From: Micrococcales bacterium
Lineage (GTDB): Bacteria; Actinomycetota; Actinomycetes; Actinomycetales; Microbacteriaceae
NCBI GenBank assembly: GCA_947489235.1
Contig: CANLDE010000007.1
Location: forward strand, 1 to 35,383
Length of the DNA stretch: 35,383 bases
Direction of reading: 5' to 3'
Both the position numbers and the translations under genes were made by a program. Numbering within the stretch: the stretch's first letter is position 1; the number at the start of each line of letters is the position of its first letter. Below, in pieces: positions 6,149 through 33,461 of this stretch. Under the pieces are notes generated by a model. That model had not been told where the DNA came from, searched no databases, and saw nothing but the letters and a program-made list of their open reading frames with translations.

Positions 6149-6161
6149 TAGTCTAAGTAAA
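6149..6161 (+). promoter_or_regulatory. Candidate leaderless -10 element (TAGTCT) of the GH16 gene
   Basis: TAGTCT ends 6 nt before the ATG at 6161, so transcription would start at or next to the start codon. Confidence 0.5.
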
Positions 6162-8131
6162 TGAAGATATCCCTCAAGCACGTTCTGGTCGCAGCAATTG
6201 CGGCACTAATTGGTCTTTCTGCGAACGTGCAGGCTCAGTCAGCTACCATGCCAACAGCCACCATTGCTTTCCCAACGCTACCTAGGGCAGTCTTTGGTGG
6301 GCCAGATGTTCCTCTTCAAATAACTCAGAGCGCTGGAACTACTACCGCGGAATCAACTACTCCTGCAACCTGCAGTGTCATAAACAATTCTTCAGTTCGC
6401 ATACTAGCTGCCGGTATTTGTAAAATTACCGCCACCAACCTAGGAACTACCTCCCACAAACCTGCTCGTGCAGTAAACAGATCTTTCAGTATCTCTAAAG
6501 CGCCTAATGTGCTTACAATTTCAGATTTTGGCTGGTTATCTATGGCTAACCCAACAGCTGATATAACTACTACCGAAACTTCTGGTGTGACACTTCTGAC
6601 TTCCCTAAGCACTCGTTACTGCACAATCTCCGGAAAAAAAGTAACCGCAATCAAAGTTGGCCCTTGTACTATTCGGGCATCAAGTCCTAGCACTGAGAAT
6701 TACCTAACTGCTAAAACTGTTTCTAAAACTGTTTTGATTGGTTTGACCTCAAGCATCCTGCCACCTGTTGTCGTGCCGCCAACCATTACTTATGTAGGTC
6801 CATGGACAATCAGACAAACTACTTTTAATGACACCAACTCATTCAATAGATCAGCTGATGCGAATGCTTGGGTAGCTAACAAGTGGTACATGCCAGGGCT
6901 TCGAGCTCACATAGCTCAGGTAGCAGTGCAGTCAACGACTAAAGTCAGCTACCTAGTAACTGACAGTCTTGGTAGACCAACCCCAAACAAAACAATCAAC
7001 CTAAGTGTTGGTAAACGTCACGGTGGATCTACTGCTTCAGTGAAGGTTGGCACATTTACAACCAACGGAGTAGATAAAACTCCTCTTGATCAGATACTGG
7101 TAACTGGAACAACAGATTCCAAAGGTGTTGTAAGTTTTGACATCATCGGTCTAGAAACAGTTGCTAAAGCTGGCCGATACACCCAGATTGCAGCCTGGAT
7201 CACTGATCTTGAAAAAGACGTCATTGACATCACAAACCTTGAATACAGTCTTCCTGCCGGTGGTTCAAATGGCGGTGGCGGCACAGGCGGAGGCGGAGGC
7301 ACAACCCCAGGTGAAGTTATTGGTGGCCCAACAGACAAGCAACTTCTTTGGTCCGACGAATTCAACTCAGCTGCTGGGTCTGGCCCAACAAGTTCTAACT
7401 GGGGACCAGATATTGGAGATGGCTGTAACACAGCTGCTGGTTGTGGTTGGGGTAATGGTGAGGCTCAGTCCTATGCTGCTTGTGCCAACAAGCAGGATGG
7501 CAATGGCTCGATGATTATCACATCTTCCACAACTGCTGGTGACCCAAGCTGTACAAGCAACAAGACTTGGACCAGCGGTAAGTTCACTTCCTTCGGTAAG
7601 AAGCACTTCGGTTACGGTTACTTCGAAGCACGACTGAAGATGCCAACAGGTGGAGGCACCTGGCCAGCATTCTGGACTCTAGGCACAAACATCAACTCAG
7701 TTGGTTGGCCACTATGTGGAGAGCTCGACGTCATGGAGTATGCCGGTAACAGCCCATTTACGAACACTTCAGCTGTGCACTACCGCAATCCATCCGGTGC
7801 TCACCAATACAAGATGGGTGCTCTAAACAATTCGCTCTCTCTTGCTCAGGGCTTCCACACTTACGGAATGCTGTGGCTACCAAATGAGGTCAAGTTCTAC
7901 ATTGACGACCGTCAAGTATTGGTTGTAAAGAAGAGCGACACCGGTCTTACTTACTGGCCATTTGGACCAAATGCATCGGGAGCAGATCCAAAGATGTACA
8001 TCATCTTCAACCTAGCAATGGGTGGAAGCTACGGTGGCGGAATCCAAGCTGGTTACAGCAAAGCAACCTTCAACATCGACTACGTTCGCTACTACAGCAC
8101 TGGTGGATATGGTTCAGTTCCAACCAACTAA
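6161..8131 (+). CDS. Secreted GH16 family beta-glucanase (laminarinase-like) with N-terminal Ig-like domains
   Basis: Signal peptide; two CS.../GxCxI-A type repeats; Gly-rich linker; GH16 module with intact GELDVMEYAG (ExDxxE) catalytic motif. Confidence 0.93.
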   Translation: MKISLKHVLVAAIAALIGLSANVQAQSATMPTATIAFPTLPRAVFGGPDVPLQITQSAGTTTAESTTPATCSVINNSSVRILAAGICKITATNLGTTSHKPARAVNRSFSISKAPNVLTISDFGWLSMANPTADITTTETSGVTLLTSLSTRYCTISGKKVTAIKVGPCTIRASSPSTENYLTAKTVSKTVLIGLTSSILPPVVVPPTITYVGPWTIRQTTFNDTNSFNRSADANAWVANKWYMPGLRAHIAQVAVQSTTKVSYLVTDSLGRPTPNKTINLSVGKRHGGSTASVKVGTFTTNGVDKTPLDQILVTGTTDSKGVVSFDIIGLETVAKAGRYTQIAAWITDLEKDVIDITNLEYSLPAGGSNGGGGTGGGGGTTPGEVIGGPTDKQLLWSDEFNSAAGSGPTSSNWGPDIGDGCNTAAGCGWGNGEAQSYAACANKQDGNGSMIITSSTTAGDPSCTSNKTWTSGKFTSFGKKHFGYGYFEARLKMPTGGGTWPAFWTLGTNINSVGWPLCGELDVMEYAGNSPFTNTSAVHYRNPSGAHQYKMGALNNSLSLAQGFHTYGMLWLPNEVKFYIDDRQVLVVKKSDTGLTYWPFGPNASGADPKMYIIFNLAMGGSYGGGIQAGYSKATFNIDYVRYYSTGGYGSVPTN

Positions 8132-13351: not shown

Positions 13352-15001
13352 ATGAAAAGATTTATACCAGCTTCTGTAGCTCTAATCCTCTTGAGCGTTT
13401 CTCTAAGTGCTTGCTCACCTGCGGAAACTTCCAAGTCGCTAGATCAATACCTGACTCAAGAATTAAGTTGGACCGAGTGCTCAGAAGACCTTCTCGTTGA
13501 AGCAGATCAGCAGAGCTCTCTCTTCAAAAGCGTCACACCTGATTGCTCAACTGTTTTAGTTCCAGCAAACTATGAAACATCTTCTGCTGAAAACAAGGAA
13601 TTTGGAATCGCTCTTATGCGACTCAGCAAAGCAGCAGAAAGCGATTACCAAGGAACTTTATTCATCAATCCTGGTGGCCCGGGTGGTTCTGGTATCGAGC
13701 AGCTTCAGTGGTCTAATTTCCCAGACGGTTTAGTAAAACACTTTGACATTGTTGGCTTTGACCCTAGAGGCGTGGGGGCTTCTCAATTCACCGATGGAAC
13801 AGAGATTAAGTGTTCTGATGAGCTTGATTACAGAACATACTTTGAGGGAGAAGCCTCTCCTGCAAACTTTGAAGAATACCAGGCAAAAATCCCGCTTTCA
13901 GATGAGTACTACAACGACTGTGTGGCTAGAAATCCACTTTGGTGGACTCTTTCAACCTCTAACGTTGTTGAAGATCTTGATGTGATGAGACAAGTCATCA
14001 CTGGAGATGAACCGCTGAACTTTATTGGCACATCCTACGGAACAACTATTGCTGGCCTTTATGTTTCAAAGTATCCAGAGAATGTCGGCAAGATTGTTCT
14101 AGATAGCCCAACCACAGTCGATGAAGACCCAATCAAGTCAGCTGTTGAGAACTACAAGGCTATGGAAATGAAACTTGACTCCTATCTGGACTACTACGCA
14201 GAGCAGGAAGGCAAGACTAGCGCTGAGGCTTGGCAAGACCTTCTATATGTGAAGCAAATTGCCGATGATGATGAACTTATTGGTTATGCCGGTTTGGTGC
14301 CTAGCGATACAGAACCTAGCCTGATGATAAGTTCCGAATCTCTTCTTAGCCGAGGAATACTTGCCCTGAACTACTTCCCTGAGCAAGATGCTAAAGAGGA
14401 ATTTGCGAAGGCAATTAAGGAAGCTCTCGAATATCGCTCTAACTGGGCTTTTGAATTCTATGCGTTACGCATGGATGGCTATGACCCAGAATCTCTAAAA
14501 GGATCTTCACTATCAGCAAAGAAGCTGAAGCGAACAAACTCTTTCGAAATTATGACAATCGTGAACTCCATGGATTACTCACCAGAAGAATTGAGTATCG
14601 AAGATCAAAAGGAGATGGCCAAGCAAATGAAGGCTGTTGCACCGAAACTCTATGCACTCAACCTAGATTCCAGTGGCTACCAGTACTACGGTGAATCACT
14701 AGGAGTTGATTGGGTAAGCATCGCCAATGAAGATGATTCAATTCCTGACCCACCAACAACTCCCCTGATTAGAGAAAACAAGTCAGGTAAGAAGTTGTTG
14801 ATTGTTGGATCAATCTACGAAGCGGTCACTCCATATCAGTTCTCGAAGGACACAGCCAAGCTATTGAAGTCACCACTGATTTCAGTTGAGTCATCAACAC
14901 ATGGCCCAGCAGCTGGTTATGACATACCTTGCTTGAATGATGTGCTGATTGATTTCTTTGTGAACGATATCGTTCCAGGGGATATGACCTGTAAGGCTTA
15001 G
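13352..15001 (+). CDS. Alpha/beta-hydrolase lipoprotein, TAP/SlpD-like (tripeptidyl aminopeptidase family)
   Basis: Lipobox [17 protein letters not shown] oxyanion motif, [10 protein letters not shown] nucleophile elbow, C-terminal TAP region [16 protein letters not shown] agggagaag. Confidence 0.9.
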
Positions 15002-16284
15002 CCAAGCATGTCGTGCAACACGATTGTTGCATCACGAGCAGGACCAACACCGATGGCTGAGATTCTGCAGTTGCTCATCTTTTCTAGTGCCCTTACGTAA
15101 TCCTGAGCATTCTTAGGTAGATCTTCAAACTTCCTGCAACCAGTGATGTCCTCATCCCAACCAGGGAAGTTTTCATAGATTGGAATTGCGTGGTGGAAAT
15201 CAGATTGTGAAACAGGGACTTCTTCCACTCTCTTGCCATCGACATCGTAAGCAACACAAACAGGAATCTCTTTGATACCAGTTAGTACATCGAGCTTGGT
15301 CAAAACGAAATCAGTTAGTCCGTTGATACGAGCCGAGTACCTAGCAATTGGAGCGTCATACCAACCACAGCGACGTGGACGACCAGTGGTGGTTCCATAC
15401 TCGTGACCTGTCTTACGAAGTAGCTCGCCCCACTCGTCAAATAGTTCTGTTGGGAATGGACCTGCTCCAACACGGGTTGTGTATGCCTTAACAATTCCAA
15501 TCACATTTTGAAATAGTCCAGGGCCAATACCTGATCCAGTTGCAGCACCACCAGCAGTGGCGTTTGATGAAGTAACGAAAGGATAGGTTCCGTGATCAAC
15601 GTCGAGCATGGTTGCCTGTCCACCTTCGAATAGCACGTTCTTGCCAGCTTCAATAGCTTGGTGTAATTCGAGTGCCGTGTCAGCAACCATCGGACGAAGT
15701 CGTTCTGTATAGGTCAGTAGCTCTGCGACAACTTCTTCAACTCGGATTGCCGAGCGGTTATAGACCTTGGTTAGCAATTGGTTCTTCTGAACCAATGCCC
15801 CTTCAACCTTTTGACGAAGAATTGATTCGTCAAACAAATCTTGAATACGAATACCAACACGGTTGATCTTGTCAGCATATGTTGGACCAATACCTCGACC
15901 AGTGGTGCCAATAGCTCTCTTACCTAAGAAACGCTCCGCTGTCTTATCCAGTGATACGTGATAAGGCGTAATGACATGAGCGTTAGCAGAAACACGAAGA
16001 CGACTAGTGTCGATTCCTCGAGCGTTCAGTGCATCCAACTCTTCAAACAACACGTGCAGATCGATGACCACACCGTTAGAAATAACTGGAATAACGCCTG
16101 GGGTTAGGATTCCAGACGGTAAAAGATGTAGTGCATACTTTTCATTACCGATGACTACTGTGTGACCTGCATTGTTTCCGCCGTTGAACTTCACAACATA
16201 CTGAATATGTTCAGCTAATAGGTCTGTAGCCTTGCCCTTGCCTTCATCGCCCCACTGAGCGCCCACAATCACAAAAGCAGGCAT
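14998..16284 (-). CDS. purA: Adenylosuccinate synthetase
   Basis: [50 protein letters not shown] motifs. Confidence 0.98.
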
Positions 16285-16463
16285 GGCAAACTCTTTTCTG
16301 CACTATATAAGGGGTAAAGGCTAAACTGCCTCATCTAAAGTTTAGCCGATGTCTAAAAGATCGGCTTTCGACTCTAGGCCTAGTCGTTGGGATCTGGTAG
16401 TCCTCACATATTGGGCAAATAGGTTGGATTTTCAGGCTAAAACCCCTAAATTTGGCACTTCCT

Positions 16464-16507
16464 GTTAACCGTTGCGACACCACTTCGAAACCTATAAGAC
16501 TTAGATT
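16464..16507 (+). promoter_or_regulatory. PHO-box-like triple direct repeat plus -10 candidate upstream of the first GH13-like gene
   Basis: GTTAACC (16464), CGACACC (16475), CGAAACC (16486) at exact 11-nt spacing, then 9 nt, then TAGATT (16502-16507). Confidence 0.5.
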
Positions 16508-16534
16508 CCTAATAGGAATTCAGTTAGGAGTAGT

Positions 16535-18448
16535 ATGTCCCTCAAACACAAGGTATTCTCTTCCGTTACAGCTCTGGCTATCGCCGTGGCTACGGTCGCC
16601 TATTTCATACACACCAGCCCGAGTAATGCCCAGTTCACGACAGGCTCCGACGGGTCAGTGTATCTCTACAACGGTTCGTACAATCTTGAACAAACAGACT
16701 TCTCTTGGGCTTTTGATGCTGAGGTTTATGCATCGGAATCTGCAGAGAACGCTAGCGATGCGTTCACCTGCCCTGCTTCTGCTACTGGTGCATACACCTT
16801 TATATCTAACCGAGGGCAGGAACGAGCCGGCCTATCCGGTTGGAACGCTGCGGCATCACAGATTTTCCCTGCTGGATCGAAGAACCTGCTAGAAGTCAAT
16901 TTCACTCCGGCAGCCAACATTATTCCTATTCTGTTGCCTCAGTCATCCATCAAGTCAGTCGGTGGGCAGTACAGCCTGGGTGTTGCTTGTACTACAAACA
17001 ACGGTGTAACAGTAATTAATTCCTGGTATCGATACATTGATGTAACCGCAGGAACCGGAGCTTGGAAGGCACTACCAAATAGCGACGGCTCCGGTGGTGG
17101 TGGCGGTGGCGATGACGGTGGTGGCGACGACGGTGATGGAGTGGATCCGACCCTAGGACTTGGTACTGAAGGTCTTACACTTAGCCCAGCAACTTCGACA
17201 ACTTGGTCTAAAAACTCGTTGTATTACAACTTAGATGTTAGAAATTTCAGTTCAACTAGTGACTTCAAAGGTGTGACCGCAAGAATCTCGGCACTGAAAG
17301 CTTTGGGCGTTGGCGTGATAGTGCTCGAACCAATCTTCCCAGTTTCACAGACTGGAAAACCAGGCACTATTGGCAACATTTATGCACCTAGCACTACTGC
17401 ATCAATAAATGAAGCGCTTGGAACTGAAGCCGATTTGATCGAACTGATCTCAGCGGCTCATGCTGCAGAAATCAAGGTTGTTCTGACTTGGGTATCAGGT
17501 CACATCGGTGATGACTCAAGCTGGGTTAGCGAAAAGCCTGATTGGTTCCAATACAGCGGCCTAAATGCCGTACGTCCTGCAGGCATGCCGTACGCAACGA
17601 TGCTTGATTACAGTGTTCCAGAGTTAAGAGCCGAGCTAATTACTCAGATGAAGAACTGGGTAACGAAGTTTGAATTTGACGGAATTGCCTCGGCTAACGC
17701 TTCAAAGCAAACTTCTGAGTTTTGGAACGAGGCGGCCTACAGGATTAACCTAGTACGTCCTATTGTCTTTCTAACCAACAGCCCTGTCACCTCAAGTCAA
17801 ACCAATAACGCCTTTAGCGTTGTGAAAAGAAGCGACTTCTTGACAACCCTGGGAACCCTGTCGAAGGGAAACACGTCTAGTTCAACTTGGGCGACTGCCT
17901 TGAAGAACCTTGGCACCTCAGGTAAGACTTCAACGAACCTGAACTTCACCACGGACTCAGTAACAGCCTCTCTCGGCAAAACAGATGCAACCAGATTTGG
18001 CAAGTATCTGAACAGCGCTATCGCCCTTACCTTTGTGGCTCCAGGTGCTCCTTTGCTGAATGCTGGACAAGAGATTGCTTTAGCTAAAGCTTTAAAGCCA
18101 TTTGACGTCGATTCAATTAGTTGGCCTACTAAAGCTCCTGAAACGACAGCACTAATCACGAAGCTTTCCAAGTTGAGAAAGACTAACACCGTCCTGCTAT
18201 CTGGAGCTGCTACAAGCGTTACGGCAGCATCCAAGTCCGTGTTCGCATTCAAGCGTTCAAGTTCTGCGGGAACTGTGTTCTACCTAACCAACTTGAGCGC
18301 TAAGGCTATAACAACTAAGGTTTCGTTTGGATCAAAGCTCACGGTTTATGATTTTGCAACTGGCAAAAAGATCTCTCTTGCTAGTTCGCAGAATGTTTCC
18401 ATCCCAGCCAATGGATACCTAATTTACTCAACGAAGCAGGTCAAGTAG
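16535..18448 (+). CDS. Secreted GH13-fold protein, predicted catalytically inactive, with an N-terminal domain shared with the WxL-like protein
   Basis: Signal peptide; N-terminal domain matches the protein at 24085-25428; SLYYNLDVRNFSS and APGAPLLNAGQE are GH13-like; nucleophile region FDGIASANA lacks the R and D of GxRxD. Confidence 0.8.
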   Translation: MSLKHKVFSSVTALAIAVATVAYFIHTSPSNAQFTTGSDGSVYLYNGSYNLEQTDFSWAFDAEVYASESAENASDAFTCPASATGAYTFISNRGQERAGLSGWNAAASQIFPAGSKNLLEVNFTPAANIIPILLPQSSIKSVGGQYSLGVACTTNNGVTVINSWYRYIDVTAGTGAWKALPNSDGSGGGGGGDDGGGDDGDGVDPTLGLGTEGLTLSPATSTTWSKNSLYYNLDVRNFSSTSDFKGVTARISALKALGVGVIVLEPIFPVSQTGKPGTIGNIYAPSTTASINEALGTEADLIELISAAHAAEIKVVLTWVSGHIGDDSSWVSEKPDWFQYSGLNAVRPAGMPYATMLDYSVPELRAELITQMKNWVTKFEFDGIASANASKQTSEFWNEAAYRINLVRPIVFLTNSPVTSSQTNNAFSVVKRSDFLTTLGTLSKGNTSSSTWATALKNLGTSGKTSTNLNFTTDSVTASLGKTDATRFGKYLNSAIALTFVAPGAPLLNAGQEIALAKALKPFDVDSISWPTKAPETTALITKLSKLRKTNTVLLSGAATSVTAASKSVFAFKRSSSAGTVFYLTNLSAKAITTKVSFGSKLTVYDFATGKKISLASSQNVSIPANGYLIYSTKQVK

Positions 18449-18450
18449 CT

Positions 18451-18463
18451 TAGATTAAAGCTG
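18451..18463 (+). promoter_or_regulatory. Candidate leaderless -10 element (TAGATT) for the second GH13-like gene
   Basis: TAGATT, 6-nt gap, GTG start at 18463. Confidence 0.4.
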
Positions 18464-20310
18464 TGATTATGGGTAAGCAACGAGGCAGGCTAGCTATTTG
18501 GCTCTCGGCTATGTCTGTCCTGGCAATCAGCTCGACTACCTTATCTCCTCACTATGCATCACCTGCTTTCGGAAATGACGTTTTCTCAATATCCGCGGCT
18601 AAAGACGGTAAAGCTGACTCGTCTCGCACCCAGATCGAATTTGGCGCGCTCAGCGTTGGCGCTAAGAAGTCAGACAATGTGTTAATCAGCAATACAGGTA
18701 GTAGATCACTGGTACTTCTAGTCTTTGCCCGATTCACTCAACTTGCAGAAGATGGGCAAACTACACTTATCTCCGCGACTGATTCTGAGCCTTTTGGTAT
18801 GGCTAGTTGGGCTCTTTTTGGATCCAAAAAAGCCGCTGATTTCAACGTCACCGTTGCTGCTGGTAAGTCGGTAGTGGTTCCTATCGAAATTACCGCGCCT
18901 AAAGACGCGTACCCAGGAGAATACAAGGCCGCCATATTGGTCCAAACCACCCTTGGAACGGGAAATGTGGCTGTGGGTAAAAGGGTAGCGATGTACATGA
19001 CGGCCAATGTCGCAGGTTCTCTGCGACCAGCTGTGAACCCAACCTGGATGAATGACAGCGTATTCTATGAAATGAATATTAGGCAGTACTCTGCGACAAG
19101 GAACTTCGCCGGAGCTGCTGCCCGTCTCAAAGAGCTAAAAACTCTCGGCGTCGAAGCTGTAATCATCAATCCAATATTCCCGATCGGTAAAAGTAAAATG
19201 GTTGGAACGCTGGGTTCGGTTTTTGCCAGCACAGACCTTTCCAAAGTGAATCCATCGCTAGGAACTGCCACCAGTTTCAAGTCGTTCATGACTTCGGCTA
19301 AGGCATCTGGATTGAAGGTTTTACTCACTGTACCGTTGGACACAGCGGCGATAGATCATCAGTGGTCAGTCTCAAAATCAAGCTGGTTCAAGAGAAATAG
19401 CGCATTCAACTTAGAGCCAGTTCCTTCGAAAGCATATTTGGCATACTACGAATATGCTCAAGAGGAACTACGACAAGCGATAATTGAAGACCTCAAGAGC
19501 TGGGTTACAGGCTACGACATCGATGGATTCATTTTCTCTGGTGCCACATCTGTTCCTAGGGATTTTCTGGACGAGCTAACCTTTAGGCTTCAGCGTACAA
19601 AAAGCCTAGCGCTGGGTACAACTGATGAGATAAAAAGTGGTTACTTCACCAACAGCCTCACGCTAACCTCCAACAGCACGTTGCTGGACTCTCTCGCTCT
19701 TCTGCGCACAGGCACCAGAACAAAAGCCCAGCTAACAACCTTGTTGAATTCAGAGGTGTCAAAATACAAATCGCCTTCCCTGCCCCTCAATCACTTGAGC
19801 AGCTATGCGACCATGGAGGGTGGACAAACTGAAACCGCAAGGTTTGCGGCCTCTCTGAGTGCTGCTGCGATGTTGAGTTTTACCATGCCCGGAGCTCCGG
19901 TTATTTTTCAAGGTCAAGAGGCCGGTTCCATTAAGGCTCTCAAGCCATTTGATAGCGACTTCATTGTTTGGCCCACAAGAGCTCCAGCTACTTTTGCTCA
20001 GTACCAAAAACTGATTAAGCTCAAAAAGGCAAATGCCGCGCTCTTCAATGAAAGATTTGGTGGGACAGCTCGTGTCCTAACAACCACATCTAACAGCCTC
20101 TTTGCCTTCAGCAGATCTACATCAACAAATACTGTTTTGGTGGTCGCCAATCTGAGCAGCAAAACACTAAAGTCAAAATTCAATTCCGGGGTTACCGGAA
20201 CACAATTCAAATATTCAGATGGTCGATCAGTAAGAATGACTGCAACATCCTACGAGCTAACACTTCCTGCATTTGGCTTTGAGATATTTACCAAGACTGC
20301 GGTCAACTAA
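18463..20310 (+). CDS. Secreted GH13-fold protein, predicted catalytically inactive, with an N-terminal DUF916/WxLIP-like domain
   Basis: Signal peptide; N-terminus resembles the protein at 22931-23962; VFYEMNIRQYS and MPGAPVIFQGQEAG GH13-like; DGFIFSGA replaces the GxRxD nucleophile motif. Confidence 0.8.
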   Translation: MIMGKQRGRLAIWLSAMSVLAISSTTLSPHYASPAFGNDVFSISAAKDGKADSSRTQIEFGALSVGAKKSDNVLISNTGSRSLVLLVFARFTQLAEDGQTTLISATDSEPFGMASWALFGSKKAADFNVTVAAGKSVVVPIEITAPKDAYPGEYKAAILVQTTLGTGNVAVGKRVAMYMTANVAGSLRPAVNPTWMNDSVFYEMNIRQYSATRNFAGAAARLKELKTLGVEAVIINPIFPIGKSKMVGTLGSVFASTDLSKVNPSLGTATSFKSFMTSAKASGLKVLLTVPLDTAAIDHQWSVSKSSWFKRNSAFNLEPVPSKAYLAYYEYAQEELRQAIIEDLKSWVTGYDIDGFIFSGATSVPRDFLDELTFRLQRTKSLALGTTDEIKSGYFTNSLTLTSNSTLLDSLALLRTGTRTKAQLTTLLNSEVSKYKSPSLPLNHLSSYATMEGGQTETARFAASLSAAAMLSFTMPGAPVIFQGQEAGSIKALKPFDSDFIVWPTRAPATFAQYQKLIKLKKANAALFNERFGGTARVLTTTSNSLFAFSRSTSTNTVLVVANLSSKTLKSKFNSGVTGTQFKYSDGRSVRMTATSYELTLPAFGFEIFTKTAVN

Positions 20311-20330
20311 ATCAAGAGCTGACCTAGCTT

Positions 20331-21122
20331 CTAGCCAAATCGACCATTCACGTAGTCTGTGGTTCTAGGGTCCTGCGGGTAACTAAACATAGCATCAGTG
20401 TCACCGTACTCGACAATAACCCCGGGTGTGCCTTGCGAGGCTAAGAAGAAAGCACACTGCTGAGAAACTCTTTGTGCCTGTTGCATGTTGTGAGTAACAA
20501 TTACGATAGTCACATCCTGAACCAACTCGAGCATAGTTTCTTCAATGACTCGCGTCGAAGTTGGATCGAGCGCTGAACAAGGTTCGTCCATTAGCAGCAC
20601 ACGAGGTTTAATGGCAAGGGATCTCGCGATACAGAGTCGTTGCTGTTGACCGCCTGATAGGCCACCACCTGGAGCTCTAAGGCGATTCTTAACTTCATTC
20701 CAGAGTCCCGCACGTTCGAGTGAAGTTTGTACTAGTTCATCTTTAGCGGCACGATCCGCTTCAACACCTGTGAGCTTGAGCCCTGCAATAACGTTGTCGT
20801 AGATTGACATCGCAGGGAATGGGTTTGGCTTTTGGAAGACCATTCCGATGTTTCTTCGTGCCTCAGTGATTTTTTTGTTTGGATCATAGACATCTTCACC
20901 ATCAAGTTTTACCTCGCCTGCCAAACTTGCGGATGGGACTAGCTCATGCATTCTATTGAGGATTCTGAGGAAGGTTGACTTGCCACAACCCGATGGTCCA
21001 ATTAGAGACGTGATAACACCGGCGGGCATGACCAGTGAGACATTGTTCAGCACCTGTCTGTCGCCAAACCAGGCTGAGATTCCTGTGGCTTCAAGAGTTG
21101 CTAGATTCGAGTTTGCTGACAT
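20331..21122 (-). CDS. pstB: Phosphate ABC transporter ATP-binding protein
   Basis: GPSGCGKST Walker A, LSGGQQQR signature, LLMDEPCSALDP Walker B, RRNIGMVFQKPNPFPAMSIYDNV typical of PstB. Confidence 0.96.
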   Translation of the reverse strand: MSANSNLATLEATGISAWFGDRQVLNNVSLVMPAGVITSLIGPSGCGKSTFLRILNRMHELVPSASLAGEVKLDGEDVYDPNKKITEARRNIGMVFQKPNPFPAMSIYDNVIAGLKLTGVEADRAAKDELVQTSLERAGLWNEVKNRLRAPGGGLSGGQQQRLCIARSLAIKPRVLLMDEPCSALDPTSTRVIEETMLELVQDVTIVIVTHNMQQAQRVSQQCAFFLASQGTPGVIVEYGDTDAMFSYPQDPRTTDYVNGRFG

Positions 21123-21136
21123 TTCCTTCTTCTTTC

Positions 21137-21988
21137 TTAGAGTAAATTCGGGAGTAATCGAGTTGCTTGATCAATGCAGAGAACCAGCACTAAACCGAGA
21201 ATTGGTGAAAAAACTATCCACGCTTTCGTGCTACCAAACTTTCTTGCAAACCAAATGAAACCTATTTGCACAAGCAGCAATACAAGCAGATTCAGAACTA
21301 GGAGCCAAACAAACCTGTTATCTGTGGCAAGCTCTCGGCTCTCAGCTGGGATACTGCCCCATTCGGTTTCCCTTAGCCCTGTTTCAAAAGCGATACCTTG
21401 AAGTTGGGCGTCGACTCGAAGAACCGAAGTTGGACTAAAGAATTCTCCCTTAGCGGTAGTAAGAACCAAATGGTTGGTTCCGGCCTTCACTGGTGCTAGT
21501 CCCTTATCGCCAGCTTCACGCAGCCCTGTAACAACATATTCGGACTTTCCTTGGCCTGTATAAACGAAGAAAGTGTCGCCTGCTTCCAGTTGGGCAAGTT
21601 TGCCAAAAGGCGCTCCATACGACCAGGCTCGCCCAAATAGAACGGTCATACCCTCTTGTCCCGGCAAAACAGTATCCCTGCGGTGACCAACCCCGCTTCG
21701 CATCGTGTTGGAGTCAGTTCCTTCAACCACGATCACATCCAGGCCGAGTTTATCGATTACCAGTCTGGCAACTGGAGCTCCATCTTTGAGAAGAGAGTTC
21801 TCGAAATCCTTCTCTCCAGTTGGTGCAGTGGCAGTACTTACTTGAACAGAGAAGGCATTTTGTAAGCGCACCTGATCAGCTGCGAAAGTCAATGGCGAGA
21901 TTACGAAAAAGTTGATTAGGAAAGCCAGCGACAAAATCAAAACACCTCTGCTGATACTTGCCATAAAGGACAGGTCAAGTCTTCTCAT
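21137..21988 (-). CDS. Sortase-fold membrane protein, predicted inactive (lacks catalytic His, Cys and Arg)
   Basis: SGVGHRRDTVLPGQEGMTVLFGRAWSYGAPFGKL...HLVLTTAKGEFF...SVLRVDAQL aligns by eye with class C/E-like sortases; N-terminal TM and two C-terminal TM segments. Confidence 0.78.
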   Translation of the reverse strand: MRRLDLSFMASISRGVLILSLAFLINFFVISPLTFAADQVRLQNAFSVQVSTATAPTGEKDFENSLLKDGAPVARLVIDKLGLDVIVVEGTDSNTMRSGVGHRRDTVLPGQEGMTVLFGRAWSYGAPFGKLAQLEAGDTFFVYTGQGKSEYVVTGLREAGDKGLAPVKAGTNHLVLTTAKGEFFSPTSVLRVDAQLQGIAFETGLRETEWGSIPAESRELATDNRFVWLLVLNLLVLLLVQIGFIWFARKFGSTKAWIVFSPILGLVLVLCIDQATRLLPNLL

Positions 21989-22941
21989 TACTGCACCTCC
22001 CTATAGGATTTTCGCTTCGTCCTCTTTACTGCTGCTGCAACAATCAGCAGCAGAACAAGTAACCCAATAACAGAAAGAGCTGGGGCAAAGATTGCACTTG
22101 AATAGGAGGTTTTGACCGGTTGATCTGAAACAAAACTGTCCGGCAAAATCAACTCTGTTTTGAGCGTGAAGAAACCAAGTGGCGGTAAGTCGGCAAAGTT
22201 TAGTAATACTGCCTGAGTTCCCTCAGGTGGAAGGTTGTCGATCTTCGAATAAAATGGCTCGCCGACTGGAGTTCCAAACAGAGTGAAGAGAGTCATTTTT
22301 ACTTCTAAATCAACATTCGAATTGGTGTCGTTGTTGAATGACATTACAGCTGAAAGACTTGGTAGAAAGCCTTGCTGTATTTTTACTTGAGGTTCGCTAA
22401 CCCTCAACGTCCCACGAATCGTTTGATAAGTAGGTGGGTTTGGAAACTGTTCTTCTGAATTTGGTAAAAGTACCTGCGCCGGCTTGGTCCCAGCCGGATA
22501 AGAGCCATCCGACTCGGTCAGAATGCCAAAGTCATTGACATAGATTCGGGCAACAGTGTATGAAGCAGCAACGTCTTCAGAGCCAAAGAATGTAAGAACA
22601 TCTATGTCGTGTGGTCCTGGTTCGAGACCATAGGGAAGTTCTAGTTTGACGTTGAGTAGGCCCTGTGGGTCAGATTCAAAGCGGGCTACTGCATCTGGGG
22701 ATGGGGATACTTTGAACAATACTGGCTTGCTAGGTTCCAGTCCCTTGATTGAGAAACTCACCATAGCCGCGTCGGACTTCTTGCCGAAGGGTACTTTCAC
22801 CCCTGCCCTAATCTCAGGAGCTCCGATAGCATTCGCAACCTCCACCTCAACTCCGATGTACTCCTCAGCTATGGATGGAGTAGCCGCTGAGGCTACGGAA
22901 CAGGCCAGCAAAAAGGTGAGTGCCTTGGATTTATAGTTCAC
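21988..22941 (-). CDS. Secreted beta-rich protein with C-terminal TM anchor (GTG start revised from the ORF track)
   Basis: Signal peptide VNYKSKALTFLLACSVASAATPSIA begins at a GTG at 22941; C-terminal FAPALSVIGLLVLLLIVAAAVKRTKRK anchor; the longer ORF-track start would overlap the upstream gene by 77 nt. Confidence 0.7.
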   Translation of the reverse strand: MNYKSKALTFLLACSVASAATPSIAEEYIGVEVEVANAIGAPEIRAGVKVPFGKKSDAAMVSFSIKGLEPSKPVLFKVSPSPDAVARFESDPQGLLNVKLELPYGLEPGPHDIDVLTFFGSEDVAASYTVARIYVNDFGILTESDGSYPAGTKPAQVLLPNSEEQFPNPPTYQTIRGTLRVSEPQVKIQQGFLPSLSAVMSFNNDTNSNVDLEVKMTLFTLFGTPVGEPFYSKIDNLPPEGTQAVLLNFADLPPLGFFTLKTELILPDSFVSDQPVKTSYSSAIFAPALSVIGLLVLLLIVAAAVKRTKRKSYREVQ

Positions 22942-23962
22942 TTGACGCAGCCCTTGTTGCTCGCGACTTACGAAGTCTTCTTGCACTCCTAAACCCAATA
23001 ATGACAAAAACTATTATGCCTAGGTATAAAACGGTTGCAGTTGGGAAAGTGGTAGCACTGAGATCGCTTCTGCCCCTAGGCTGTTGAACATCGATGTTTT
23101 CTGAGGTGAAGATTCCGGTGAATATCACCGAAGTGTTAGTGGACACAAACTGGCCTCCGCCGGACACAGTCTGAGTCACCTCTCTTGTGCTGCCCGGAAG
23201 TAAGTTCGCGACCCTGATGCTTTCTTGATTCCCGGCGAACAGACCTAGAGGTCCTGAAGCTTGAGCAACAACATCAGCGGAGAGTTCGATGTTTCCTGTG
23301 TTTTTCAATTCATAGGTAAGGGTCTGTCTATTGTCAAATGGGTTGAAGAAACTAGTCTCAGTAACACTCTTCAGGTTAGACAGTTCAAGCCTTGCTTTAA
23401 TTTGTCCGCTTAGCCGCGCATACAGTCGAATAGCAACTCTTCTAACAACATTTATTGTCTCCCCCTTGGTGACAGCGGAGGCCACGATTGCACCTGCGTG
23501 ATCACCCGGTGATGCCTCAACCGGGGTGTTCACAGTGAATGGAATAGTCACAAAGTTTCCAGGCTTCAGTGAGAGTTTGTAAGTTTTCTGATTGCCTTCA
23601 AATAGAACCCACGAACCAACATCTGTTGGCTTGACGTTCTCATCTTGTATGAGGAAATCTCCATCACTTCCTGAAAAAGCGTCGCGGGCATAAAGTGTGA
23701 CCTCTTGAACTGAGGTGCCAGTGTTAACTACATATATAGAATCTTTAGCTGGTTGACCAGGGTTGAGTTGATAGTCGAATCTGGTTCGACTCGGATCTGC
23801 TTCTCCATTTGTCGCGGGGTTGACAGCTACTGCGTCTGTCTCTTCGCTTGGACTTGAATCTGGAGCAGCATTAGATCCTGCTACTGGAAAAACTAGAATA
23901 GCGAGCACCAAAGCCACCGAGAGCAAGGCTCGGCCAAGCAAGCCATGAGGCGCTGAAATCAT
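22931..23962 (-). CDS. DUF916/WxLIP-like surface protein with C-terminal TM anchor
   Basis: Signal peptide; PSRTRFDYQLNPGQPAKDSIYVVNTGTSVQEVTLYARDA...SPGDHAGAIVAS resembles the WxL-interacting protein peptidoglycan-binding domain; second Ig-like domain; C-terminal TM and basic tail. Confidence 0.75.
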   Translation of the reverse strand: MISAPHGLLGRALLSVALVLAILVFPVAGSNAAPDSSPSEETDAVAVNPATNGEADPSRTRFDYQLNPGQPAKDSIYVVNTGTSVQEVTLYARDAFSGSDGDFLIQDENVKPTDVGSWVLFEGNQKTYKLSLKPGNFVTIPFTVNTPVEASPGDHAGAIVASAVTKGETINVVRRVAIRLYARLSGQIKARLELSNLKSVTETSFFNPFDNRQTLTYELKNTGNIELSADVVAQASGPLGLFAGNQESIRVANLLPGSTREVTQTVSGGGQFVSTNTSVIFTGIFTSENIDVQQPRGRSDLSATTFPTATVLYLGIIVFVIIGFRSARRLRKSRATRAASSEL

Positions 23963-24041
23963 GTGTAAAGAGTCTCATTTTCGAGTTACCAAATGCACAA
24001 CAGCAGGTAAACCAGAGACTAAAACGGCACATTAAATACCA

Positions 24042-24069
24042 ATGCGGCGGAGCCGAAGCTCCGCCGCAT
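24042..24069 (-). other. Intercistronic GC-rich hairpin with UUCG tetraloop
   Basis: Minus-strand RNA atgcggcggagc-ttcg-gctccgccgcat: perfect 12-bp stem, C(UUCG)G loop, no T-tract after it. Confidence 0.85.
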
Positions 24070-24084
24070 CAGTGTGTGTGGGGA

Positions 24085-25428
24085 TTACTTAGTTGCGAGA
24101 GTCAATGTGACTGTCGATGTGTAAGTTCCCGCAGCTGCGGTACGTGGTGCACGCAAGGTTAGGTTTGCGTTTAGAACTGTGATACCGGTGTCACCTAGGT
24201 CAGCAAGCTTTGCAGCACTTGCTAGAGCGACAGGGTATGTAGCAGATCCAGCTGCAGCGTTTCCAGCTGCCGCAACAACACCAGTAGCTGTTGTTGATGC
24301 GGTTACAACGTTAGGAACCAAAGCAAGATTGCGCTTGTCAATCGTGTTTGATCCGCTAACGAAGTTAGCCACGTCAGCCTGCAGATCCCAACCATCGGTT
24401 GTGACCCAACGGGTGTCGTTGATCTGAACGTTACCTAGAGTTCCTGTTGTTTGTGAGTAGTTGTTCACAATGGTAGGAGACCCGAAGGTGGCTGCAGCGT
24501 TTGCAGGAATTGACAACTCAAGGAAGCCATTCTGCATTGCCTGAACACCTGCGCTCATTGAAACGGTGCCACCAAGAACTGCTGAGCCACCAAGAACCAT
24601 AGGTGTCTGAGTGCTTGACTTAGTAACGCTAACTCCCGCTGCTGTGTAAACAACATCAACAGAGATCTTTGCGTAACCGTCAGCGTCTACAACTGTGTAA
24701 GTTGCTGCAGTCTGGCTAGCAATAGCGTTACCGTTTCTCTTCCACTGGAATGCTGTTGTGTAGTCTCCAGGGAATATAGTCGGCTCGTTCTTAGTTGCTG
24801 TTAGCACATCTCCAACGTATACAGATCCAGCTGCACGGTCACTTGGAGCCGGTGAAACAGGAGTTGTAACTGCCCAAGTTGGTGTTGGTAGAGATGAGCC
24901 TACAGAATCAGTTGCAGTTGCTGCAGCTGTGTAAGCACCTGTGCTAGCTGTAACTGTAATGGTTCTGTAGTACGCAGCCAACACTGTAACACCGCTGTTT
25001 GAGGTACAAGCAACACCAAGGTTGAAAGTTCCACCTGATGTCTTTACACCCAATGCGTTACCGTTCACCTGAGCTGCTGGTGAAAGGTTTGGCTGAAGGA
25101 TGTTCTTGGTTCCTGGACTGAAAGCAATTGGTGCATATGCATTCCATGATCCTGGCACTGTGGTGTTAGCCGCAGTTGAAAGGAAGGTAGCAGCACCGTC
25201 CGCTGTTGCTGGGCAAGAAAGCACTGCATTAGATGCTGTGCTGCTTGCTGATCCAACAACTTCGCCATCCCAAGTAAATGTGTTGCTTAGGACGTAGCTT
25301 CCGTTGTATAGGTGAACAGCACCGAATGATCCGTTGCTCTGGTAAGCGGCTTGTGCTGGTACCAAGCTGCTAATTAGTAGTACTGCTGAGGCTGCAATAA
25401 CGCCTAGGTTTAGAGTTGTCTTCTTCAT
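24085..25428 (-). CDS. WxL-like secreted surface protein
   Basis: Signal peptide; N-terminal domain shared with 16535-18448; Ig-like VGDVLTATK...FQWKRNGNAIASQTAATYTVVDADGY; C-terminal VNDTRWVTTDGWDLQADVANF-like proximal WxL motif and C-terminal TYTSTVTLTLATK. Confidence 0.72.
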   Translation of the reverse strand: MKKTTLNLGVIAASAVLLISSLVPAQAAYQSNGSFGAVHLYNGSYVLSNTFTWDGEVVGSASSTASNAVLSCPATADGAATFLSTAANTTVPGSWNAYAPIAFSPGTKNILQPNLSPAAQVNGNALGVKTSGGTFNLGVACTSNSGVTVLAAYYRTITVTASTGAYTAAATATDSVGSSLPTPTWAVTTPVSPAPSDRAAGSVYVGDVLTATKNEPTIFPGDYTTAFQWKRNGNAIASQTAATYTVVDADGYAKISVDVVYTAAGVSVTKSSTQTPMVLGGSAVLGGTVSMSAGVQAMQNGFLELSIPANAAATFGSPTIVNNYSQTTGTLGNVQINDTRWVTTDGWDLQADVANFVSGSNTIDKRNLALVPNVVTASTTATGVVAAAGNAAAGSATYPVALASAAKLADLGDTGITVLNANLTLRAPRTAAAGTYTSTVTLTLATK

Positions 25429-26984
25429 TAGTCGTTATCCAATACAGCTGACTGTGGCTTTGCTACAAAGTAGCTTACGGCTGAAACAGTTGGAGAAAGA
25501 AGTCCGTATAGTTCCTTGACCTTACCTGCTTTTGATGCTCCGGTTGTTTCAATGTTAGCTAGCTTGTTTAGAGTTGGGTCCACAAGAGCAGCTAGGTTAG
25601 CATCATACTTGGCATTTCCTGAGGTGACACGTGCTCGCTCGACGAACAAGAAGGTGTCTCTACCCCAAGTAGTGTCATAGTAATAAACAGAGTTTGGTAC
25701 CAATTTGGAATCGACTGTGTTAGCTGGGGAATAACCGAGGGTTGTAGTTGTATATATTGAACCCAGAACTGCAGTTCCAGCGCGGTTAAATGATGCACCG
25801 TTCTTCATCGCAATCCACCTTGATGCAGACATAGGCATAACCTGGTCTCCAGTCAAACCAGTTGCATCGTGCTCTTGGCTATAGCCGATTCTTCCAGCCG
25901 CAAAGTTTGCTGCCTCCAAGGTTGGCTCTGTTGCTGTGGCTTTGATGAAGTCATTGTAGGTTCCTGAACCCTGCTGAGGCATGATTCCCTTCATTGCGAT
26001 GCTTGTTGTCCCGATGGTAAGAGGTGTTGCGAGCTTACTGCTTAGGGATTGTGAGCCAGTTAGGGCAGCGCCAGTACCGGTTGAAGCTAAGCTAAGAGCT
26101 GTAGTACCGGTAGAGGTAAACGCAATTGTGTTAGGAGATGCACCGCTTGTTACAGTCCATTCGCCTACCAATTCAGTTGGAATACCAGTGCTTGCGCCAA
26201 TCGTAATTTGTGATCCTACTGGATATGCAGCAAAAGCACCGGAAGCTTGGATTGTCACTTCCGCGTTACCCGCAGTACGTGCAATAGACGTAATTTTGCG
26301 AACAGTAAAACCACCATCAAAAAGTGTCTTCAGCTGTGCTGTGGTCAGGTAAGGAGTGCAACCTGCACCAGCGTCACCATCCTGGCCTGCGTCACACACT
26401 TTAGTTGCCAGAGTAGACGTGAAAGCTAGACCAAAGGCATCTCGTCCGAATGGAATTCGGGCGATAGTGCCGTTTGTTGCATCCTCAGTGGTTGAGGCGG
26501 GTGTTGCGCTTGATGAGCGAGCAATATCTACCTGACCAAAAATATTCACATTTCTCAATGACTTGGCCATCCAGTAATTTGCCACTGCAGTCTTTGACAC
26601 GCTAGCAACACCGACAGGCTGGTATGTGCCAGATGTAAAGATTTGGGTCGCAGCAGCAGTGCTGATAGAAGCACTTAGGGCTTGGAAACCTTCAGATGAG
26701 CCATTTGGTCTAGAGAATCTAACTCCACCTGGACGGGTGATGATAGACGGACCGCCTGTTGCATCGAATGAACCAAGAGTCGCACCGTTCTGGGTAACAC
26801 GAACAGTTGCGCCAGTGATTGCAGTTCCATTGACTAGGGCGTTTAGAACGTCCTCAATGGTGTCTGATCCTACAACTACGTAGGAGTTTGAAACCGGCTC
26901 CGCCTGAACGGTTGAACCGGTGCTAAATGCAGCGAAACCTGCGCCGAATACGGCTACAGTTGCGACTAATTTTTTAACCTTCAA
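25428..26984 (-). CDS. Secreted PstS-like periplasmic-binding-fold protein with inserted beta domain (TTG start revised to codon 11 of the track ORF)
   Basis: YVVVGSDTIEDVLNAL; ARIPFGRDAFGLAF; LTTAQLKTLFDG; QQGSGTYNDF motifs; ggaagag RBS before ttgaaggttaaa; signal peptide. Confidence 0.7.
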   Translation of the reverse strand: MKVKKLVATVAVFGAGFAAFSTGSTVQAEPVSNSYVVVGSDTIEDVLNALVNGTAITGATVRVTQNGATLGSFDATGGPSIITRPGGVRFSRPNGSSEGFQALSASISTAAATQIFTSGTYQPVGVASVSKTAVANYWMAKSLRNVNIFGQVDIARSSSATPASTTEDATNGTIARIPFGRDAFGLAFTSTLATKVCDAGQDGDAGAGCTPYLTTAQLKTLFDGGFTVRKITSIARTAGNAEVTIQASGAFAAYPVGSQITIGASTGIPTELVGEWTVTSGASPNTIAFTSTGTTALSLASTGTGAALTGSQSLSSKLATPLTIGTTSIAMKGIMPQQGSGTYNDFIKATATEPTLEAANFAAGRIGYSQEHDATGLTGDQVMPMSASRWIAMKNGASFNRAGTAVLGSIYTTTTLGYSPANTVDSKLVPNSVYYYDTTWGRDTFLFVERARVTSGNAKYDANLAALVDPTLNKLANIETTGASKAGKVKELYGLLSPTVSAVSYFVAKPQSAVLDND

Positions 26985-27049
26985 CTTCTCTTCCTTCTTT
27001 TGATTTGGACGCAATCATCTTGATGACGCCATCCAAGTCACCTTGGACG

Positions 27050-29527
27050 CTATAACGATGTCCTTCTAGGGTTTACAAGAAAGGAACGAATTCTTATGAG
27101 TCCGTAAAAGATAAATGAACAAAGGAACAACACAATTGCGAAAGGAACGGCAGCAACTGACAGCGGCAGCTCAGGGTTGCTTGGGGTCAACCCGGCAGCT
27201 ATAGCCTGTTGAGTTGGTTGCGGGGAGGCAATTACTTCGGGGTTAACTTCTTGACCAACATTTGTCTCAGGTTCTGTGACTTTTCCACCGGTTCGAATTT
27301 CGCTCGCTACCGCTAAAGCCGTTTTCACAAAAGACGGATTTAGGGGTGCGTAACCTGGGGGTAGTTCTCCGGTTTCGGTACCACCAGTTTGACCTTCACT
27401 AACTGCAAACTTGATGAGATCCGCATACGAAATTCGGGTATCGCTGTCACCTTGATTCGGGTTGGTTGCGGCATAAATTGGAACAGTCAAAGGATAGGCG
27501 CCTTTGGCCTGTTTCACTTTCGTCGAGCTCAGATCCAACTCGTAGACTCCAGAGTTTTTATTCGACGGTGTCATGACATTTTGAGCTTCTTGTAAACTGC
27601 TGAGATTTGGGGCGACGAACTCTCCCGCAGGGTTCAGGAGTGCAACCTGAAAAGCTTGGTAGCGTTCCGCAGCAGTTGTTGTTGTTATGGCGAACACTCT
27701 TCTATAGCCAACCGGGCTTCTGGGAGTTTTTGAAAAGGCTGGTGGAGATCTGAAAGGGTCCCAAGCTCCAAGCTGGTACGCATTCCCCGTGAGAGTAGCC
27801 TTCGCGCCTTCTTCGAAATCTGACAGGTAGGGACGCCAAGTAACAACGTTAATCGGCCCACTTGGGCTGATGCCGCCCGACAGAGTAGTGTCTGGCTTTT
27901 CAATCGGGTCGCTCTTTGGAAACCCAAGGTTTGGCATGTCGAAGGACTTTCCAGAAGGGTTCATTGCTTTGTCGGTACTAAACCAGGGATTTATTCTCAT
28001 GCCGTATGGGTCTGGAATGCCTGCCATGAAGTCTCGGCCATCTGGGTCAGCTTGAATGTATTCCCAAACCCTTTCCGCAAGAAACGATCTGGAGTTAGGG
28101 ACCAAGGCATCAGCGATGCCTCCAAGGGTTAGATCCATGTAGGCCCAGTGTGGCGAATCGCTATTGACCTCGATAAATTCAGGGTCTCTCGTAATGTTTC
28201 TAGGATTCATTTCTATTACTCCCGCGTCCACCTGCGGTGGCAGAGCTTCGCGATAAGAGCTGGTAAGGAGCTTGGCTAACAGTCGAGGGGTTAGCTTTAG
28301 GCTCTTGAAGGGTGTCTCGTTTAGAGCCCTTATGTCAGGTGGTATAAGTTGTGTCTCATCGACTCTCCTGTCAATAGAGAAGGTTACCGATATCCCACCA
28401 ATGGCCAATGGCGCGTAGGCGAGTTTGCTATCTAAATCGTTGCCAAGAGCTCTCGTTGTGATAGCGAGGGGGCTACTTTTTTCTCTGGTAGCAGATACTA
28501 AGGAGTCGCCATCAAACTGATTGCTAATAACAAAAGCAGACTTAGCTCCTTCAGTACAGAGGCGAGGCTGCCAAGACGCAAATGCAGCGCCTGCTAGTTC
28601 ACTTCCTTGGACTAATCTTTCTGGAACCCCTAGAGGGCAACGCACTCCAATAGGGCGAAAGTCCAGCTTGATAGCAAGGTGATGCTTCCATGCGTCCCAG
28701 AAAAGTCCTGACTGAACTATTCCGTTTTGACGATTATCTTTAGACCCGCGCGGCAAGATAACTAGCCAGCAAGGTTGCCCAACAAACTTACCTCCGGCTT
28801 TTACTGCCTTTCCGCAACCCAGCCCAGGTGAGGAAGATGCGGTCTGCAATTCAAATTTGACGTTGCCACTTCCTCGTGAATCTGATCCAGCCCAGGTTAT
28901 TTCATTAGAGGTTAGTCGAGAAAAGAATTGGTTTGAACTCATTGAGACAGAATAGTCTGCAACGAACTTTCCATCATTATCGCGCTTGAGATCCCAAACC
29001 CTCTCGCCGGTAGCTGAATTAAATGGAATTGACGTGTACGGTGGGTCAAAAAAGCTCGTGCCCGGTTTAGTGAATTTGATGTCCTGTGGATCAACTGCCG
29101 CAGCTGAGGTGTTATAGGACCGAGCATTCGCAGGACCGTTGTATCCACCATACTGGCAGGTAGTTCTGTCAGGATGACCAGGTCGGTCAGGGTCTTCACC
29201 CCAGCATTGAAAAATTTGCAGAAAATTAGCGCCACCGCTAGTGATTGGTCTAGAAGAATCAGGTGTAGCGCCTGTCCAAGAAACGTCCACACCTTGATCT
29301 GCTAGGTTCTTGGTCTGAGACACAGTCACCTTCAAATTTGGCATTGGTGAGGTGCGGTAATCAAGTTCGTATTCACTGGCGGAAACAGACTTGGCAGATT
29401 CTGTTAGGAATGAATTAGATGTGGTTTCCGCTGCCAGAGCTGTTGGGCTGAGAAGCAAACTTGAAACCAGACTTCCAAAAATCAAACTAGCAATGACGTC
29501 TCGGGTTAGCAACTTGTGTTTTCTCAT
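27050..29527 (-). CDS. Large PstS-like periplasmic-binding-fold surface protein with C-terminal TM anchor
   Basis: Signal peptide; APLAIGGISVTFSIDR...FKSLKLTPRLLAKLLTSSY and YPLTVPIYAATNP resemble PstS segments; C-terminal LPLSVAAVPFAIVLFLCSFIFYGLIRIR. Confidence 0.7.
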   Translation of the reverse strand: MRKHKLLTRDVIASLIFGSLVSSLLLSPTALAAETTSNSFLTESAKSVSASEYELDYRTSPMPNLKVTVSQTKNLADQGVDVSWTGATPDSSRPITSGGANFLQIFQCWGEDPDRPGHPDRTTCQYGGYNGPANARSYNTSAAAVDPQDIKFTKPGTSFFDPPYTSIPFNSATGERVWDLKRDNDGKFVADYSVSMSSNQFFSRLTSNEITWAGSDSRGSGNVKFELQTASSSPGLGCGKAVKAGGKFVGQPCWLVILPRGSKDNRQNGIVQSGLFWDAWKHHLAIKLDFRPIGVRCPLGVPERLVQGSELAGAAFASWQPRLCTEGAKSAFVISNQFDGDSLVSATREKSSPLAITTRALGNDLDSKLAYAPLAIGGISVTFSIDRRVDETQLIPPDIRALNETPFKSLKLTPRLLAKLLTSSYREALPPQVDAGVIEMNPRNITRDPEFIEVNSDSPHWAYMDLTLGGIADALVPNSRSFLAERVWEYIQADPDGRDFMAGIPDPYGMRINPWFSTDKAMNPSGKSFDMPNLGFPKSDPIEKPDTTLSGGISPSGPINVVTWRPYLSDFEEGAKATLTGNAYQLGAWDPFRSPPAFSKTPRSPVGYRRVFAITTTTAAERYQAFQVALLNPAGEFVAPNLSSLQEAQNVMTPSNKNSGVYELDLSSTKVKQAKGAYPLTVPIYAATNPNQGDSDTRISYADLIKFAVSEGQTGGTETGELPPGYAPLNPSFVKTALAVASEIRTGGKVTEPETNVGQEVNPEVIASPQPTQQAIAAGLTPSNPELPLSVAAVPFAIVLFLCSFIFYGLIRIRSFLVNPRRTSL

Positions 29528-33329: not shown

Positions 33330-33349
33330 AACATACCTCCTCGACGTTC

Positions 33350-33393
33350 AAGTTAGTCATTTTTGGTGAATAAGAGGTTTCATAAAGGTAAAG
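33350..33393 (-). promoter_or_regulatory. PHO-box-like triple direct repeat and -10 candidate upstream of pstC
   Basis: Minus strand CTTTACC-tttA-TGAAACC-tctt-ATTCACC at exact 11-nt spacing (plus-strand GGT at 33365, 33376, 33387), then 9 nt, then TAACTT (33350-33355). Confidence 0.55.
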
Positions 33394-33461
33394 TTTGTAA
33401 AATACTAGTCAGCTTCGCTTTTGAGCCGTGTCTTTAGCTAGTGACAAATACCGTCGATAAT

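Follow-up and report, generated by a model that had tools for sequence, protein, structure and literature searches.

Two apparently inactive GH13 barrels joined to domains of a neighbouring phosphate-transport and WxL-like operon in a small-genome lineage of Microbacteriaceae

Introduction

In Firmicutes, DUF916 domains bind WxL domains, presumably by strand insertion, although this is mainly a prediction in the source (PMC10599100). Clusters of WxL genes were earlier proposed to serve carbohydrate use (PMC1534035). A precedent for pseudo-amylases as transporter subunits is offered by rBAT and 4F2hc, whose ectodomains have been described as fake or orphan alpha-glucosidases (PMC8537225). Furthermore, the AmyB group (Thermotoga neapolitana, PDB 4gkl) has been proposed as a new subfamily of glycoside hydrolase family 13 (GH13; PMC11239784). 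Here, we describe two tandem genes of a member of the Microbacteriaceae, W637 and W615, whose products each join a domain of a nearby operon protein to a GH13 barrel that appears to have lost its active site. They lie on contig CANLDE010000007.1 of assembly GCA_947489235.1 (positions 1 to 35,383, hereafter the window), beside an operon that combines a second set of phosphate transporter genes (pstSCAB) with genes for WxL- and WxLIP-like proteins (the pst-WxL operon).

The source of the window is a metagenome-assembled genome (MAG) of 1.16 Mb. Small genomes are typical of its genus, whereas genomes of other family members are mostly 3–4 Mb. The isolate names of the nearest records suggest a freshwater origin. 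Our genus sample comprised 67 genomes. Several of the genomes used here are incomplete MAGs; that a gene is missing at a locus is better supported in them than that the genome lacks it altogether. In the open-access literature, we found no association of pst genes with WxL or GH13 genes.

Results

Fold and active site of the GH13 barrels

W637 (16535–18448, plus strand, 637 aa, ATG start) is an open reading frame at the place given in the original prediction, which was made from the window's letters and open reading frames. It consists of a signal-like N-terminus, a domain of the type found at the N-terminus of the 447-aa operon protein (447-type N-domain, residues ~31–185), a Gly/Asp-rich linker (~186–205), and a seemingly inactive GH13 barrel with C-terminal domain (~211–637). 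After a gap of 14 nt follows W615, likewise at its predicted place (18463–20310, plus strand, 615 aa, GTG start with an in-frame ATG two codons downstream), with a signal-like N-terminus, a DUF916/WxLIP-PGBD-like domain (~39–190), and a barrel with C-terminal domain of the same seemingly inactive kind (~190–615). Signal peptides and anchors were read by eye throughout this study. The pair is convergent with pstB, which lies 20 bp from W615.

Both proteins show the (beta/alpha)8 barrel and C-terminal beta domain of GH13. They match Pfam family PF00128 (GH13) at E-values of 7e-13 (W637) and 3e-13 (W615), and the PDB entries 4gkl and 3dhu at E-values of about 1e-19 to 1e-22. The AlphaFold2 model of W615 (pLDDT 87.6) was aligned by Foldseek to 4gkl with a target-based TM-score of 0.88 and an rmsd of 2.9 Å, and it fits 3dhu at a TM-score of 0.86 and 3.1 Å. 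For single sequences, BLAST scores were calibrated against 1000 shuffles, while profile pairs were compared with hhalign. The two barrels share 33% identity over 428 aa and score 256 bits, compared to 34 bits for shuffles.

The fold is retained, but the catalytic residues are not. The catalytic Asp of strand b4 is replaced by Ala387 in W637 and Ser359 in W615, the catalytic Glu of b5 by Asn415 and Thr387, and the catalytic Asp of b7 by Val476 and Ala449, respectively. The invariant Arg of region II has become Ala385 in W637 and Ile357 in W615. Hence, the two paralogues differ in what replaced the lost residues. We compared nine fused barrels with 27 stand-alone relatives (24 from the genus and three from outside); each site was counted over the sequences that extend across it. 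The Asp and Asn of region I, the Arg of region II, the Glu that acts as acid/base and the His of region IV are missing from all of the fused barrels. In contrast, at least 26 of the 27 stand-alone relatives retain the DxVxNH motif, the region II Arg and Asp, the acid/base Glu and the NHD motif. Stand-alone secreted relatives of this kind (~450–590 aa, some as fragments) occur in 29 of the 67 genus genomes.

The stand-alone relatives have 58 conserved columns, and all fused proteins keep 22 of them, including one that is an artefact of a gap. The eight columns of the catalytic regions are all missing from these 22, for which a hypergeometric count by hand gives a chance of ~0.016. Most retained columns hold glycine, proline or another scaffold residue, and a GQE motif is also kept. 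Judging from these residues, the fused barrels look catalytically dead, with the fold preserved and the known chemistry lost. That the barrels are dead while their stand-alone relatives are intact had been missed in the original prediction.

History and maintenance of the barrels

In a tree built without the catalytic columns, the paired barrels fall into a W637-type and a W615-type clade (support 100/99), and these two clades are sisters (100/100). A fusion protein of genome G082 groups with them at 94/92; the tree program flags long branches and did not star this placement, which we regard as likely only. The relationships fit a single capture of an amylase, followed by inactivation and then duplication. 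Two independent captures are disfavoured by the sister relationship of the barrels.

Between the window and G080, the genome used for pairwise comparison, W637 and W615 are 97% conserved. Their dN/dS ratios of 0.136 and 0.142 compare with ~0.10 for pstS and pstA, and with values of ~0.14 both genes are maintained by purifying selection. Family and class samples yielded no fused barrel elsewhere. A 670-aa protein of genome G854, considered as a possible fused homologue outside the genus, was rejected, since it has a different N-terminus and intact active-site motifs.

N-terminal domains in common with operon proteins

The N-domain of W637 is 45% identical to that of the 447-aa operon protein over 152 aa (BLAST 115 bits; maximum of 1000 shuffles 32), and hhalign aligned the two with a probability of 100, an E-value of 1.9e-42 and 42% identity. 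For the N-domain of W615 and that of the 343-aa operon protein, identity was 28% over 151 aa (71 bits; shuffles 25), with an hhalign probability of 99.6, an E-value of 8.8e-24 and 25% identity. Crossed pairs (W637 with the 343-aa protein, W615 with the 447-aa protein, and the N-domains of W637 and W615 with each other) scored at shuffle level, with hhalign probabilities below 2%. A generic Ig-like similarity as the source of the matches is ruled out by these crossed controls and the shuffles. Accordingly, the pairing of N-domains with operon partners that had been proposed from the sequence was borne out, as was the relatedness of the two GH13-like halves as a duplicated pair.

The model of the W637 N-domain has a pLDDT of 86.7 (core above 90). 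Neither a sequence search of the PDB at E ≤ 1 nor a structure search with the model at E < 0.001 gave a match for this domain. Two cysteines are kept in most of the 34 aligned members of the N-domain family and may form a disulfide. Single N-domains also occur as stand-alone proteins of 177–187 aa with an N-terminal hydrophobic segment inside other pst-WxL operons (L167:2840–3373, L170:1456–1995, L172:2889–3428 and L188:1501–2064), which identifies the N-domain as a reusable, pluggable module. Three of these genes adjoin 447-like genes; in the stretch fetched for L170 there was none. A homologue of W615 in genome G017 matches PF06030 at an E-value of 2e-5, just under the cutoff. W615 itself does not have the architecture of a WxLIP protein (DUF916, then HBD and a transmembrane helix), as a GH13 barrel comes after its DUF916-like domain and its C-terminus showed no hydrophobic segment.

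Linkage to the operon and insertion of the cassette

The full-length 447-aa protein is found in five of the 67 genus genomes: G000, which holds the window, G080, G017, G029 and G082. Fused barrels occur in these same five genomes and nowhere else in the genus. They adjoin pstB in G000, G080, G017 and G082. In G029 the pair is split over contigs, and the contig ends match the same gene order. Outside the block, the window and G080 have purA as neighbour, whereas other genes take this place in G029 and G082. The linkage between barrels and operon is thus seen in at least three flanking contexts, at 47–61% identity. Independent occurrence of the genes in relatives, which would have spoken against a functional tie, was not observed. 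Separately, a 1.7-kb contig of genome G075 (C114, L134) carries a homologue of o528 together with the beginning of a 447-like gene, and may be a remnant of the operon, a contig end or a contaminant.

The whole cassette (16285–33461) lies between purA (14998–16284) and spoU (33462–34118). In the cassette-free relatives G028 and G006 these two genes are adjacent, and in G086 they are one gene apart. A fourth relative, G013, has other genes between them. In steps of 500 bases, the window and G080 are 94–99% identical at 16.5–25 kb and 30–33.5 kb, compared to mostly 74–93% in the flanks. The cassette is inherited or exchanged largely as a unit. Within the 94–99% block, the region of the 528- and 825-aa genes (o528/o825, 25428–29900) is a divergent allele (66–83% identity to G080), for which replacement of the allele or diversifying selection may be responsible. 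Each of the five genomes carries a second pstB at another place (in the window genome at G000:C2:44789–45565), and the cassette-free pst loci that we examined (G028, G006) are ordinary pstC-A-B-S sets.

Genes of the pst-WxL operon

All operon genes are on the minus strand. The operon begins with the permease genes pstC (32301–33329) and pstA (31096–32301), both named from sequence and operon position, followed by the gene for the phosphate-binding protein PstS (29528–31099; TIGR00975, E-value 3e-62), which has a C-terminal hydrophobic segment. Next come an 825-aa protein (27050–29527) with a C-terminal hydrophobic segment and a PstS-like C-terminal part (TIGR00975, E-value 8.5e-6), and a 528-aa protein conserved in the operon (25428–27014), which gave no Pfam or NCBIfam match and is by eye possibly PstS-like. 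The last gene is that of the ATPase PstB (20331–21122), for which orthologues were found.

The original prediction had labelled the 447-aa and 343-aa proteins a WxL/WxLIP-like pair, and both names call for caution. The 343-aa protein (22931–23962) clears the cutoff of PF06030 (WxLIP_PGBD) narrowly, with 27.6 versus 27.3 bits, and its G082 homologue reaches 35.7 bits. By eye, its C-terminal hydrophobic stretch TVLYLGIIVFVIIGF is followed by basic residues. DUF3324 (HBD) was not matched in Pfam by the 343-aa protein at an E-value of 0.1, nor by two homologues at 10. The 447-aa protein (24085–25428), which combines the N-domain in common with W637 and a WxL-like C-terminal domain, had no Pfam match itself. 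Its homologues match PF13731 at E-values of 0.001–0.017, under the cutoff, in the C-terminal part that is absent from W637. Of the two WxL motifs of a WxL domain, one (GWDL) was seen, and we therefore call the protein WxL-like only.

A 339-aa secreted protein (21988–23007, TTG start) with a C-terminal hydrophobic segment and no Pfam match is followed by a protein with a sortase fold and hydrophobic C-terminal segments (21137–21988). In all ten operons examined (ten loci), the catalytic His of the latter is replaced by Arg and Cys is missing from the Cys position. The His position was confirmed against PDB 5uus and 5go5, while the Cys position was taken from motif spacing. Since both catalytic residues are lacking, covalent sorting by this protein is unlikely. 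Its C-terminal LLPNLL is almost invariant across the ten operons.

Elsewhere in the window, a secreted GH16 glycosidase with a long N-terminal region is encoded at 6161–8131; G080 lacks this gene between purL and the helicase gene.

Variants in relatives

Five larger-genome family members have an operon of the order pstC-A-S-825-528-447-343-339-sortase-pstB, in some cases partly cut off in the fetched stretch. In several other relatives, an extra stand-alone N-domain protein is encoded between the 447- and 343-type genes. Because the core operon occurs without GH13 genes at the locus, the GH13 fusions are a lineage-specific addition. Genome G082 has three tandem N-domain proteins of 184, 456 and 854 aa (L133:893–5424), convergent with pstB. 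The 854-aa protein has two N-domains and a dead barrel, and a DUF916-barrel protein is absent from G082. Therefore, the arrangement with one barrel for each partner is derived, not universal.

Discussion

A probable non-catalytic role at the cell surface

We consider it moderately probable that W637 and W615 are secreted and belong, as subunits without catalytic function, to a surface complex built on the second PstSCAB together with its WxL/WxLIP-like scaffold. In this lineage, a secreted alpha-amylase would have been fused to an operon module, lost its active site and been duplicated; the 447-type N-domain is now found on one copy and the DUF916 (WxLIP) domain on the other. Each barrel could be mounted on the scaffold via the module that it has in common with an operon protein. 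By analogy with the DUF916-WxL interaction of Firmicutes, the partner of W615 might be the WxL-like C-terminus of the 447-aa protein, and the N-domain of W637 would link W637 to the complex. A direct complex of W615 with W637 is hypothetical: in the Firmicutes model the partner of DUF916 is the WxL domain, and W637 has none. Instead of acting as enzymes, the barrels may bind glycans or polymers as a head domain, or may provide structural mass, and the benefit may lie in the capture of phosphate from a phosphate-bearing or sugar-rich surface or polymer.

Several points weigh against this explanation. Neither W637 nor W615 has an obvious C-terminal anchor, and hence both might be released. No GH13 gene was seen at the operon locus of the five larger-genome relatives, which makes the barrels optional. 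Co-regulation of the pair with the pst operon is unsupported, as there was no promoter-like site directly upstream of W637 and no motif common to the upstream regions of W637 and pstC. Moreover, at two of the three catalytic carboxylates, the nucleophile and the transition-state stabiliser, the W615-type protein of G029 has an aligned Asp, although it has neither the Arg of region II nor the Glu nor the His of region IV. The proposal that the two proteins are matched modules of a single assembly is therefore only partly upheld: shared modules, operon linkage and insertion as one block speak for it, but G082 and the operons without GH13 at the locus show that the mirrored arrangement is not a requirement.

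An alternative explanation might be that the proteins are secreted, lectin-like binders of alpha-glucans that ride in the same mobile cassette and have no physical tie to the pst-WxL complex. They form a separate, convergent two-gene unit outside the operon transcript, cassette neighbours can hitchhike, and no common promoter motif was seen. Yet, each of the two has a domain specifically homologous to an operon protein, their linkage persists across the diverged flanking contexts, and G082 keeps N-domain-barrel proteins at the same place beside pstB, which together render this explanation unlikely. W637 and W615 are probably exposed, the cassette has apparently been exchanged between species, and the o528/o825 alleles are sharply divergent. 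Possibly, then, phages or grazers have shaped the pair into decoys or receptor variants on the surface, that is, into exposed dead enzymes that diversify to escape attack. However, both proteins are well conserved between the exchanging genomes and the divergent segment lies elsewhere in the operon, and we find such a role rather improbable.

The intact barrels under purifying selection and the two aligned carboxylates in G029 could also point to active enzymes whose catalytic machinery is rearranged or whose substrate is new. Yet, no fused barrel has kept region I, the Arg of region II, the Glu that acts as acid/base or the His of region IV, the replacements differ between the two paralogues, and we judge this reading very improbable. 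Loss of the active site would also be expected of decaying amylase pseudogenes. That idea is almost certainly wrong: the reading frames are full-length in the window and G080, the dN/dS is ~0.14, and the genes are kept in three diverged lineages. It was rejected on the dN/dS and the intact frames.

Comparison with known systems

By sequence, no solved fold is closer than AmyB (4gkl) and the Lactobacillus plantarum protein 3dhu, which also rank among the best Foldseek matches. Like AmyB-type alpha-amylases, the stand-alone relatives in the genus keep their active-site motifs, whereas W637 and W615 lost the catalytic residues and gained operon-type N-domains. One genus contains active relatives, an inactive fusion and the duplicated pair side by side, so that the change from enzyme to pseudo-enzyme can be traced.

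The locus resembles the WxL/WxLIP (DUF916-DUF3324) clusters of Firmicutes, including Csc of L. plantarum (PMC10599100, PMC1534035), in having a DUF916/PGBD protein with a putative C-terminal hydrophobic anchor beside a WxL-like protein, modular proteins that share domains, a cluster that is mobile as a unit, and a proposed surface complex. It differs from them in being actinobacterial and built into a pst operon, in its dead GH13 barrels and a sortase-fold protein without catalytic residues, and in the missing DUF3324 match and weak WxL signal. With this locus, surface assemblies of the WxL/WxLIP-like kind would extend to an operon for phosphate uptake in Actinobacteria, and our results suggest the idea of a surface complex for phosphate capture in small-genome freshwater bacteria.

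Like rBAT and 4F2hc (SLC3), W637 and W615 have a GH13 barrel without confirmed catalysis, and they would have the same kind of ancillary or scaffolding role beside a transporter. In contrast to the animal proteins, they are bacterial and secreted, have no known covalent link, and would serve an ABC phosphate transporter instead of SLC7; their association with the transporter is suggested by gene linkage and common domains, and an independent origin is likely. More tentatively, and with some doubt, we propose that a phosphate transporter recruited the pair of dead amylases as non-enzymatic subunits, on a WxL/WxLIP-like scaffold with a sortase-fold protein that lacks its catalytic residues. This would make W637 and W615 an independent prokaryotic counterpart of the pseudo-amylase subunits of animal transporters, and a bacterial parallel to subunits that are themselves poorly explained.

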